Positions 41,840 to 47,784 of a DNA stretch of 64,000 nucleotides are shown here, in pieces. The stretch covers positions 41,134,440 to 41,198,439 of the forward strand of contig OX485807.1 of the NCBI GenBank assembly GCA_950295325.1. Reading direction: 5' to 3'. The number at the start of each line of letters is the position of its first letter. Within the stretch, counting starts at the first letter, position 1. Origin of the DNA: Polytrichum commune (lineage: Eukaryota; Streptophyta; Polytrichopsida; Polytrichales; Polytrichaceae). The notes under the pieces were generated by a model that was given only the letters and a program-made list of their open reading frames with translations, ran no database searches and had not been told where the DNA came from. The translations under genes and the position numbers were made by a program.

Positions 41840-42318
41840 TACTACACCGTTTGTGGTATTTAGTGTCACATGCGTAGTAATGTCACTTACCCTATTTTGA
41901 GGTGTATGTTAGGTTATACTGATGATTGGCAACTTCACCATAAGTGCCACATCATGACACGCGGCGTTCAAGTGTGCTCACTGATATCTTGGCATGAGTG
42001 AGTTATGTTCAATAGCGTTAGGAGGTGCATGCCCATGTTACAAGTTGACTACAGTGTACACAGATGACACTTGCCATTAGTACGCTAAAAAATATCTTCC
42101 CCTTGCATACTAAGATACAAGATTGTCATCTAAATTATCGCAATGTGCTATTGTAAATGTCACCGAGTAGATTTTTTCCCACTCAAAGAAGTTACTCATG
42201 TTGACGAACGGAATCATATTGGCAATTAGTGGGCGTGACATTTTGAGACCTCTAGGCATCTAGTTCAGGCCCTTCGCAAATATTGTATGTGACACTAAAT
42301 ACCATAAACAATGTAGTG
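41840..42318. mobile_element. CACTAC-ended MITE, copy 1 (about 479 bp)
   Basis: The left arm (41,841-41,869: ACTACACCGTTTGTGGTATT then TAGTGTCAC) is mirrored by 42,289-42,318, whose complement starts CACTACATTGTTTATGG. The inverted repeat is about 29 bases with three mismatches. CACTAC termini suggest the CACTA (EnSpm) superfamily, but a three-base target duplication is not clear. Its interior matches 61,275-61,530. Confidence 0.7.
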
Positions 42319-43234: not shown

Positions 43235-43329
43235 TACCCTACCTCAACGGCAGGTCCGGCACACCAGTGCCGGATAATTAAAGAAAACAGTGCCAAACAG
43301 GTTCGGCAAGTGCCGTTGAAAAAATCTAA

Positions 43330-43385
43330 CTCCGGCACTTGCCGTTGATGACAATTCCGGCACTTGCCGAAGTCTGCTGCCGGAG
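43330..43385 (+). repeat. Subterminal CCGGCACTTGCCG repeats
   Basis: CGGCA-AGTGCCGTTG / CCGGCACTTGCCG motifs occur in both orientations within about 130 bases of the left terminus, and the terminal repeat itself contains AACGGCA and TCCGGC. The right subterminal region has only weaker GGCACT matches. Confidence 0.6.
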
Positions 43386-43469
43386 TCTGCTTCTTTGTAC
43401 TCCTAGGTTCGAACGAAGCGTCTTTCCTCAGTAATGTGATGTTTATGGTTTAGGTTTAAGGTTCAGGGC

Positions 43470-43580
43470 TTGGGGTTGATCAGGACAATGATCTGCGCGG
43501 CTTCAAATTTTTGGTTGCTTACGCCGCTGATGCTACTTTCATTGCATTTCGCGGATCTCGGACTTTTGAAGACTTAGGCC
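43470..43580 (+). pseudogene. Captured fragment, possibly alpha/beta-hydrolase (lipase-3-like)
   Basis: An open stretch reads GVDQDNDLRGFKFLVAYAAD then ATFIAFRGSRTFEDLGR. The (F/V)xAFRGx...D(L/W) pattern recalls the segment ahead of the nucleophile in class 3 lipases. The frame then runs into low-similarity sequence. Its higher GC than the surroundings and its place inside the transposon suggest capture. Identity is tentative; the catalytic GxSxG is not present. Confidence 0.3.
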
Positions 43581-44425
43581 GGGAGAGTCAGCCGTCGTCC
43601 TCTGCCAGTGGGGTTCATGGGGTGGTTCTGGAGCTTTCCCGCAGCTTCAGGGGATGTGGTTGCAACTTGCTCGCTCAATTGTCCAAATCGGAAAAGCGCA
43701 CAGCAATACAAGATTACACACAGCAATACAAGATCTTGAACAAACCGGCTCCTAATTCACATCACTGCTGAAGGTGTGACCGCGGTAAGCCGAGGATAAT
43801 GCCAATAACAACAACTTTTTGGATAGGACAGTAAGAAGTCTTTGCTTCCGCTGCTGCCGGAGTCTGCTTCCGCTACTACCGACGATTGGATGACTGCCGA
43901 AATGAGCTTCATGGCCTTCTTAAAGAAGAGGTGAATTACCGGTAGGTCAATCTCCACCTAAACCAAATCTGTCAAGTGTTTTCGACAACAGTAGTCTTAG
44001 CAATTAGCTCGTTTTGAAGGATTCGAGTGTTTCACCTTGAATTGTTCAGTGTGAACATCATGTAGTTTTCCCCGAGTTCATGGTTTGAGTGTCCTATGAA
44101 TCCTGAATTTGACACACGCAAGCATTGTATGCCATTGTATGCCAGCTTTTCTTCAATTTAGGATGATGTCGCTCAATCTTTCTGAAGGAGCATAAGTATA
44201 TGAATGAGTACTAGATTATGTCCAGATTTTACTTGCATAGCAATGGATACTTAAGACAATCCTTGATGACCCTTCCCTGTCAGTGTTTATGTATATAACT
44301 AACAGTTTGCAATCACTTCGTCATATCCCTGTGTGCAACTTATGTCAGCTTTGTGCAAATTGAATCGCAACTCCACCTTTGAACAAAGAGTTTTCTAAGC
44401 CTAATTTTTTTTTCTCTTTGGTCAG

Positions 44426-44562
44426 GTGTTGAACCTGGAGGTGATGGACAAGAGCCGGCATTGGAAAATTGTTGGATGCAGTGCAATGTCTGGGGAGGGC
44501 CTCCTAGCTGGCTTTCATTGGCTAGTTTCTGATGTGGGCTCTCCATCTACATGCTAGAGTGA
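44426..44562 (+). pseudogene. Captured last exon of an ARL2 (TITAN5-type) small GTPase
   Basis: After a well-formed 3' splice site (pyrimidine tract then GGTCAG) the frame reads VLNLEVMDKSRHWKIVGCSA, then MSGEGLLAGFHWLVSDVGS. This is the C-terminal part of plant ARL2/TITAN5, including the SA(x)TGE-like G5 guanine-recognition loop, here CSAMSGE. A one-base deletion near 44,543 shifts frame; the next frame gives IYMLE and a TGA stop, the expected family ending. The preceding 500 bases look like the host intron and the following 100 like its 3' UTR. The exon lies inside the pogo-like transposon and cannot make a GTPase: the P-loop and switch regions are absent. Confidence 0.85.
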
Positions 44563-44668
44563 CCACACTCTTGCATTGGCTGATTGAAGTTATCCCAATA
44601 TCAAGAATGTAGGAGCAGGGGGTTCCAAATTTCGACCATTCCCTTCTTGTTTTCATACAGCTTTCAAA

Positions 44669-46522
44669 ATGAGCCAACTTTTGTTATCATCGATGTTCGG
44701 TCGTATAAGTAAAGAGGAGAATCAATCTTATATTGAGAAGGCTGTTGAGGTTGACTGGTTGGAGCACAAAGATAAGAAGAAACCTTGTGATATTATCAAG
44801 AAACCGGTTGGTAGACCTAAAAAACTTAGAAGATTGGAGATGAGTTTGGTTTCCAACATATCTCCAATATTGCAACCTTCATCTTCTGGTACTAAGGCTA
44901 GGGTGAGGGGGCCTTACACCAATTGGTTTACGCATGAGCTTTGGTCTCCAATTGAAGCAGCTATGAAGCAGCTATGAAACAACACAAAAATCATACTGCT
45001 GCATTGAAATATTTGAGGATCACTCATTGCACCAAGGGTACATCTACAGGGCCTTACGATAAATTGTCACGAGGAAGTTTAAATGAGTGGTTCACAACCA
45101 GTGGAGAGATTCGAGGTCATGTTTCTGCATGTGTTGCAAGAAAACACGCATTTGTACCTCAAGGGCAACACATGCCACCACTTCAATCACATATGGAGGT
45201 TACCACAGAACTTGTGGAATTACTCTTAAGTATGAGGGAAGCAGGTGTTTCTCTGCATGCTGGAATTGTTCAACCAATCATTATTGGTTTTCTCCAAGAA
45301 AAAACCCCCGGAGTACTTCAAAAATTGAAGGTGTCATTGAATTGGACTAGGAGATTTATGCGATCTAGGCTCAATTGGCGATTTCGGAAGCCCACAACGG
45401 TTAAGGGTAAACTTCCAACTGATTGGGTAAATCAAGGTCACATGATGATCTTGAGAATTGCATACTTGGTTAAACTATACAACATACCTCTTAGTCTTGT
45501 GATGAATATTGATCAAACAAGCATACATTTGGTACCATTAGTTGGAGATAGGACTTGGGAAAAGAAATGATCCAATGATGTTGGCGTTATTGGAGGTGAT
45601 GACAAAAGGGCTATCACTGCTTGTGTATCTTCAGCAGCAAATGGTTCTTTACTTCCGCTTCAACTCATATTTTCAGGGACTACAAAGAGAGTCATACCCA
45701 AAACTCAGCGAGGACGGCAAGGCCTTGATTATGGTTTTCATTTCACTATGAGTGGGAATCATTGGTCGAATTTGGAATCTATGAAACAATTTGTGAATTT
45801 CATAATTGTTCCATATCTTCACCGTGAGAGTGACAAGTTAAATTTTTCTAGTTCGCAAAATATGGTGTGCCTTATTGATTGTTGGAGCGTACATACCAGT
45901 TCAGAATTTCGACTTTGGATGAAAACAACTCATCCCCGCATTTTGTTGCTTTATGTGCCGGCCAATTGCACATCTAAATTTCAACCAGCAGATATTGTCT
46001 TACAAAGGCCTTTAAAATGTGTTTTTGCAAAAAAAATTTAAGTTATGGTCTGCAAGTGAAATTCAAAGGATGGTGGCTAATAAAGTGCCAGTTGGTGCAA
46101 TGAAAGTTGATAGTTCAATGGAGACAGTCCGTGAAAATGCTGCTGAGTGGATGTTTATGGCTTGGAATAAGCTTCGAGTTCATAAAGAGATGATTGCATC
46201 CGGTTGGGCGCGATGTGGGATTTTAAAAGCGTGGGACTTTCGAATTCAGAATGAAGCAATGAAAGTGAATTTTGAGAAATCTCTTTTTGGAGAATTAGGC
46301 AATCTTGTTGAAGACCAAAATTCGGAATTAGATGTTCCTGATTATTATTTAGACATTGATGTTTTAGATTGTTTAGCTCGTTGTGTATCTAACTTGAGCA
46401 TATCTAATGAGATAGACTTACCTGATTTGAATGAAAGTCTTGACTTGGAGAATGACATATTAGATTTTGCACATTTTGATTCTACTGGGATTGAAGAATT
46501 CCCACCAACAAGTGAGAATTAG
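44669..46522 (+). pseudogene. pogo-like DDE transposase with three frameshifts
   Basis: The reading frame begins MSQLLLSSMFGRISKEEN just after a splice-acceptor-like TTTTCATACAG. An AT-hook-like KKPVGRPKK lies at about residues 47-55. The catalytic core follows: first D in VMNIDQTSIHL (about 45,502), second D in CLIDCWSVHTS (about 45,883), third D in SKFQPADIVLQ (about 45,990). An acidic tail rich in D, E and L ends at 46,522. Breaks: an 11-bp tandem duplication at 44,956-44,977, a one-base loss near 45,565, and an extra A in the run at 46,029-46,036. With these ignored the length is close to 600 residues, normal for plant pogo-type enzymes. It is inactive as read, unless the breaks are assembly errors. 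Confidence 0.9.
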
Positions 46523-46782
46523 AAGTACGATATTACTTATTATATACCAAATAGGTTAAATGTGATTTTATCACATTAAGTTTGCATATTAGTGTTGTTT
46601 TTTGATTTCTACGGAAAACACATATGTATTTTTTAGTTTATAATGAAATTTGTTTTACAAAAATTTGGCACTTTTATGATAGATTTTCCAACATTTTTGG
46701 CATTTTTGGGTTGCTGAAAAATAATTATTAGGCACTAGCAAAATCAATTAATTATGGCCGGACCTGCCGTTGAGGTAGGGTA

Positions 46783-47552: not shown

Positions 47553-47784
47553 GGCTACATTGTTAATGGTCTTTAGTGTCACTTACTATTTGAAGTTACA
47601 CAATACTACAAATATTTACTAAGAAGGCAAGTTTTTACCAAGTAATTTAAGTAATTTATGTTATATCATGTCCATACAACCTATTTATCTTTGTAGATCT
47701 ATAGAATGAAACCTACCATAAGAAGTTACAACGTTGTGTAATCCCAATTAAGAAGTGACACTAAATACCATAAATAGTGTAGTG
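47553..47784. mobile_element. CACTAC-ended MITE, copy 2 (232 bp)
   Basis: The left arm 47,553-47,582 (GCTACATTGTTAATGGTCTT then TAGTGTCAC) and right arm 47,755-47,784 (complement CACTACACTATTTATGGTAT) pair. The pairing extends inward through TTACACAA on both sides. The left tip has two changed bases. It is shorter than copy 1 and looks like a deletion derivative of the same family. Confidence 0.7.

Follow-up and report, generated by a model that had tools for sequence, protein, structure and literature searches.

A pogo-like transposon of Polytrichum commune carries a piece of the GTPase gene ARL2/TITAN5 (TTN5), and the sequence comparisons indicate that this piece was probably obtained second-hand, passing from an ARL2 gene to a Mutator-like element (MULE) of the Pack-MULE kind and from there to the pogo-like element. 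Gene capture is usually viewed as a step from gene to transposon. If the relay is true, every captured fragment is available for re-packaging by further elements of the same genome, counts of capture based on gene matches overstate the number of independent events, and a fragment could survive the loss of its first carrier. The window, by which the whole analysed stretch of 64,000 nucleotides is meant, corresponds to C5:41134440-41198439, and the assembly searched comprised 407.8 Mb in 64 contigs, 7 of them large.

The element in the window and its cargo

The pogo-like element occupies positions 43237-46780 (3,544 bp) and is bounded by perfect 24-base inverted repeats with TA outside. The left terminal inverted repeat (TIR) with its flanking TA (43235-43260, plus strand) is complementary to the right one (46757-46782, minus strand) at 26 of 26 positions, that is 24 bases plus TA, and the chance expectation of such a match within 4 kb is about 3e-8; the TA-flanked perfect repeats described from the sequence alone are thus real. 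All further features are on the plus strand. The left end of the element (43237-43391) is common to the cargo copies and, to about base 136, also to empty copies (16 genomic places, 14-row alignment). At the other side of the cargo lies the transposase leader (44644-44668) with a predicted 3' splice-site-like TTTTCATACAG, identical in the empty copy L026, and then a decayed pogo-like transposase gene (44669-46522) with its first stop after 102 codons.

The cargo was earlier taken for the end exon alone, which proved too narrow. It begins with the last part of ARL2/TTN5 exon 3 (43875-43930; read from the sequence and aligned to the MULE), behind which stands GT, and continues with parts of introns 3 and 4 (43931-44425), from which exon 4 and adjoining intron have been deleted at about 44124/44132, alignment to the MULE placing its coordinates 941 and 1387 side by side. 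Exon 5 (44426-44562) ends in the stop codon TGA at 44560-44562 and stands behind an intact 3' splice site, TTTTTTTTCTCTTTGGTCAG, so the ARL2 ending recognised by the sequence-only reading holds; its translation is 78% identical over 41 residues (E 4e-17) to an Arabidopsis TTN5 sequence. The start of the 3' untranslated region (44563-44640) forms the right cargo edge, 78 bases past the stop codon and adjoining the transposase leader. The alignment stops at MULE coordinate 1896 in both the window copy and the copy L018, and the two have an identical 3' cargo edge joined to one transposase leader. A one-base deletion near the end of exon 5 had been read as decay of this copy. The deletion is real, however it is present also in L018 and absent from all eight MULE copies and the resident gene, and was therefore inherited within the pogo lineage rather than arising by decay of the window copy alone. 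The exon 3 tail, the loss of exon 4 and a 454-bp filler at 43396-43849 are features beyond those noticed at first.

Pogo copies across the genome

Copies were sought with the window's own 163-base left end as query and the best candidates were scored, a search by which other empty members may be missed. Among the matches listed, 16 places share the left end, 14 with ARL2-derived DNA (the window, L018, L020, L021, L022a, L022b, L023, L054 and the short copies L048-L053) and two without it (L026 and L027; 3,276 bp, 99.8% alike). The proposed capture of ARL2 sequence by a pogo-like element is in this way borne out, since the ends are not peculiar to the window and cargo-free copies exist. Both ends could be read in 15 copies, and all 15 have TA at either side (L022a shows one end). 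In ten copies the perfect TIR was followed to its first mismatch and measured 24 bases in one (the window), 19 in six and 6 in three. These copies, their identities, insertion sites and junctions are read directly from the assembly.

Exon stretches are kept in four of the 14 cargo copies (window, L018, L020, L021), while the remaining ten hold ARL2 intron pieces and at most four bases of exon 4. In L022a, L022b, L023 and L054 the cargo consists of intron pieces of 66 and 91 bp; the six short copies (741-754 bp) hold about 87 bp of ARL2 intron. A 371-bp filler (L048:245-615) is common to L048-L053 and L020. One internal deletion, joining MULE coordinates 1144 and 1578, is common to L018, L022b and L023 and implies a single ancestor; L022b has other sequence left of its ARL2 cargo.

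The Mutator-like carrier and the resident gene

Eight loci (L010-L017) contain a 4.3-4.4-kb Mutator-like element with ARL2 exons 2-5. In L016 the inverted-repeat arms measure 253 and 272 bp and are 90% alike. Matching termini were found at both ends in all eight copies, with duplications of 9 or 10 bp, seven of them distinct (read by eye); L010 and L011 have their duplication in common, which leaves seven distinct insertion sites among the eight loci. Target duplications of MULEs are typically 9-11 bp. Outside these eight copies, the MULE with ARL2 is present at L025:3102-9813 in a broken and interrupted form; the left TIR there is 93% like that of L016 over 155 bases, and 25 sites are MULE-like against 1 native-like. 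The intact resident ARL2 gene, for which the sequence-only reading had advised a search, was found with exon 1 at C5:44.46 Mb (L019), 3.3 Mb from the window element.

Where the pogo cargo came from

Over 759 bases of window cargo, 61 sites have pogo and MULE agreeing against the resident gene, none has pogo and the gene agreeing against all MULE copies, and 12 are private. The same count (pogo with MULE/pogo with native) gave 57/0 for L018, 42/1 for L021 and 35/0 for L020, and for the short cargos 25/0 in L022b, 25/0 in L023 and 11/0 in L048. The counts were made on trimmed pieces, with L050-L054 left out. The distance of the window cargo is 9.8% to the resident gene and 1.9-2.9% to the three MULE copies compared. 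In a tree the four longer pogo cargos group as one clade (support 83), which near-zero branches attach to the MULE lineages. At either end the MULE cargo also covers more of the gene than the pogo cargo does, and transfer from pogo to MULE was considered and rejected for this reason. With the MULE-sided sites and the longer gene segment of the MULE, an origin of the pogo cargo from the MULE is the simplest reading. That a fragment of the ARL2 gene was captured is correct, but the resident gene was not its immediate donor, which was most likely the MULE with exons 2-5.

The gene which the MULE itself captured was probably not the resident one either. The eight MULE copies are set apart from the resident gene by fixed differences at 88 of 928 intron sites and 10 of 480 exon sites, the latter comprising 8 synonymous codons and 1 replacement codon (two bases). 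With equal neutral rates assumed and the introns as yardstick, capture from the resident gene followed by free drift of the MULE for half of the divergence would give about 18 replacements (2 or fewer, P = 3e-6); no more than about 18% of the divergence could postdate the capture. Few exon replacements in spite of the intron divergence suggest that the MULE probably drew on a functional ARL2 lineage that had by then split from the resident gene and was about 9-10% off it in introns. Purifying selection on the MULE cargo was considered as another cause of the conserved exons; it is disfavoured by later changes, L010 having D>G and Q>E while L013 and L016 show R>W as well as a stop, although such changes are few. 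Possible sources of the donor are a lost paralog, another haplotype or a sex-linked copy, hybridisation or horizontal transfer. It may tentatively be supposed that the ARL2 DNA relayed between the superfamilies was foreign, the Pack-MULE having introduced it from a related species through hybridisation or horizontal transfer (or else from a chromosome of the opposite sex or of another subgenome), with pogo elements then picking it up and spreading it to this day.

A functional donor other than the resident gene also leaves room for a different history, unlikely but deserving attention, in which pogo and MULE took up their pieces separately and at roughly one time, straight from one diverged ARL2 gene that has since been lost or was never in the assembly. 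Such a vanished gene could have served both elements, as none of the pogo cargos examined was seen to include sequence peculiar to the MULE, be it TIR or non-gene part. Nor does the near-star tree, made with four pogo rows and with L022b, L023, L048, L049 and L025 excluded as short, firmly assign pogo to a single MULE subgroup: the nodes between the pogo clade and the MULE lineages have support of only 46 and 50. At the MULE-polymorphic columns examined, pogo mostly agrees with the native gene and does not side consistently with any one MULE subgroup. However, this history requires two independent and closely timed captures of overlapping segments, as the bases on the MULE-only stem amount to 0 of 759 in the window cargo and 1 of 562 in L021. 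The protein search for ARL2 relatives in the assembly (56 matches, best candidates scored) also speaks against it: the matches listed with at least 54% identity all lie in the resident gene, the MULE or the pogo copies, the rest (29-50%) are other family members, and none among the 56 fits the donor.

Direct capture from the resident ARL2 gene is very improbable; the gene is intact with exon 1 and located on the same chromosome as the window element, yet the 61 sites against none and the distances given above would fit it only if the gene was later replaced. That the transposon merely inserted beside a native ARL2 fragment, a reading with no support beyond the window itself, is hardly credible and is refuted by ARL2-derived DNA between the same pogo ends, with TA outside, on C2, C3, C4, C5, C6 and C7.

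Foreign filler and the mode of capture

The 454-bp filler of the window copy is missing from the other fetched loci compared and is 98-100% identical to its donors on C3 and C1. Piece 1 (43396-43484) comes from C3:49664663-49664753, minus strand (89 of 91 aligned columns identical). Piece 2 (43475-43700) is like C1:19905111-19905336 (224 of 226 identical) and equally like C1:19760341-19760566, and it overlaps piece 1 by TTGATCAGG, common to both donors at the C3-C1 switch; the C1 donor lies within a class-3-lipase-like reading frame, with a weak Lipase_3 match (E 8.9e-4, 19.6 bits) below the curated cutoff of 22. Piece 3 (43712-43849), from C3:49664445-49664582, minus strand, is identical at 138 of 138 positions and is preceded by a slippage copy of CACAGCAATACAAGAT, whose duplication at the re-entry into C3 gives the direct repeat 43699/43719. 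The return from filler to pogo takes place at TGCTTCC, a word similar to TGCTGCC, the subterminal repeat of pogo. The order C3, C1, C3 together with the shared TTGATCAGG and the duplicated CACAGCAATACAAGAT points to template switching as the way in which the window copy took up these pieces. This uptake is an event separate from the ARL2 capture.

The ARL2 cargo may have entered by template switching as well, a reading favoured by CGGA shared at the left cargo edge of L021, although this may be the edge of a later deletion. As regards the mechanism only, a tandem-insertion model has been put forward for Pack-TYPE elements (PMC8903248), and here it would mean fusion of two neighbouring pogo insertions inside the Pack-MULE instead of gap repair. 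Local hopping is made likely by four family copies within C2:667-745 kb (L022a, L022b and L054 at 724-745 kb, L023 at 667 kb). Nevertheless, such a fusion is quite unlikely: no third 24-base TIR, with 3-4 mismatches allowed, occurs inside any copy scanned, and the C3-C1-C3 filler fits template switching, though it belongs to a different event from the ARL2 capture.

Transposase and activity

A transposase frame of 613 aa is found in the empty copies L026 and L027 and in the cargo-bearing L022b, L023 and L054; it is broken in the window (102 aa) and in L018 (53 aa). The L026 protein matches Pfam DDE_1 (PF03184; E 1.9e-10, 41.1 bits, cutoff 22) and has the triad D278, D400, D438 with 37 residues between the last two, motifs that were picked by eye. 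No HTH family, including HTH_Tnp_Tc5, was detected for it in Pfam at E 1, and a PDB sequence search with the transposase gave nothing under E 0.09. With DDE_1 and a D-D-37-D triad but no HTH detected, "pogo-like" is a fair name. The 5' part of the same empty element contains a 142-aa antisense frame (L026:4231-4659, minus strand) with no Pfam family above cutoff.

At two different sites, L054 and L022b agree over 3,172 bp (100.000%), and the 1,952 bases in view of L022a show no difference either. Recent local hopping on C2 would be the simplest reading of these identical copies, and gene conversion could be another cause of their likeness. At L022 (C2:742-745 kb) two cargo-bearing pogo copies stand head to head, about 2 kb apart, identical where in view. 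In the transposase region an unrooted comparison of six copies puts L022b and L023 at 1.0-1.1% from the empty L026 and L027, but at 2.1-2.3% from the window and L018. These distances speak against a simple picture, but one capture would still fit if the root is placed on the empty branch.

The ARL2 cargo sits 5' of the splice-acceptor-like motif beside the transposase ATG, the splice site being predicted. Exon 5 and its acceptor are absent in L022b, L023 and L054, whereas the transposase is broken in the two copies that retain them; a sample of two does not allow any cost of exon 5 to the element to be claimed. A host gene fragment lies inside a mobile TIR element at 14 of the 16 left-end places, as expected of Pack-TYPE elements. 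The window copy, its frame stopping after 102 codons, is also non-autonomous as the term demands. The cargo family as a whole appears not to be, with L022b, L023 and L054 having both cargo and the 613-aa open frame; taken strictly, the term applies to just the window copy and the short ones.

Proposed history

In the relay proposed here, a Mutator-like element would first have taken up the stretch of ARL2 that runs from intron 1 past exon 5, the source being a functional lineage about 9-10% diverged in introns. Early in the spread of this Pack-MULE, a pogo-like element would have copied at least MULE coordinates 531-1896 to a site just upstream of its transposase ATG, the probable route being template switching in gap repair of a break or excision site. 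The cargo-bearing pogo element may then have transposed and diversified by internal deletions, short branches turning non-autonomous and one open-frame branch apparently moving very recently on C2. Finally, the window copy would have filled another break with the pieces from C3 and C1.

Relation to known systems

Capture had been considered much less well known for the Tc1/mariner superfamily, but Tc1/mariner Pack-TYPE elements with gene pieces (Pack-Mariner) have already been described in rice and maize (PMC8903248). They are likewise TA-flanked TIR elements with host gene fragments, some multi-locus and mostly of low copy number; there, however, they were found with Stowaway TIRs, whereas the present element is pogo-like, some of its cargo copies are open-frame and its cargo is apparently second-hand. 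L010-L017 resemble Pack-MULEs in their long TIRs, 9-10-bp duplications and host gene exons plus introns; as far as tested they are ordinary, and they stand out only as the likely donor to another superfamily. Pifvine-3 of grapevine also has host exons and introns in a long 5' region, sometimes common to several copies, but it belongs to the PIF superfamily and no between-superfamily transfer is described in the accessible part of that paper (PMC2528002). Animal Pack-TIRs, for which gap-filling and FoSTeST models are discussed, show similar filler capture with microhomology at breakpoints (PMC8277862); in contrast to those animal cases, one element here has ARL2 cargo and a later C3/C1 patchwork. 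According to PMC7386202, pogo in land plants was reported only as Lemi, in 23 eudicots; the DDD-type transposase is a common feature and the 37-residue D2-D3 spacing lies within the DD29-42D range, but the L026 protein differs in the missing HTH_Tnp_Tc5 match mentioned above. In the literature searched, as far as its text was available (including PMC8903248, PMC13317346, PMC8277862, PMC7386202 and PMC2528002), no report of Pack-MULE cargo handed to a pogo or mariner element was found, which does not prove absence.

Because there are open-frame, cargo-bearing pogo copies with identical sisters, the process can be studied directly, and in the window copy a patchwork taken from two chromosomes, with marks of template switching, can be followed base by base. 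A further locus, L024 (79% over about 100 bases of intron), was set aside. Rfam gave no match in the window, and two MITE-like units with related inverted repeats flank the pogo element, one on each side (41841-42317 and 47555-47782).
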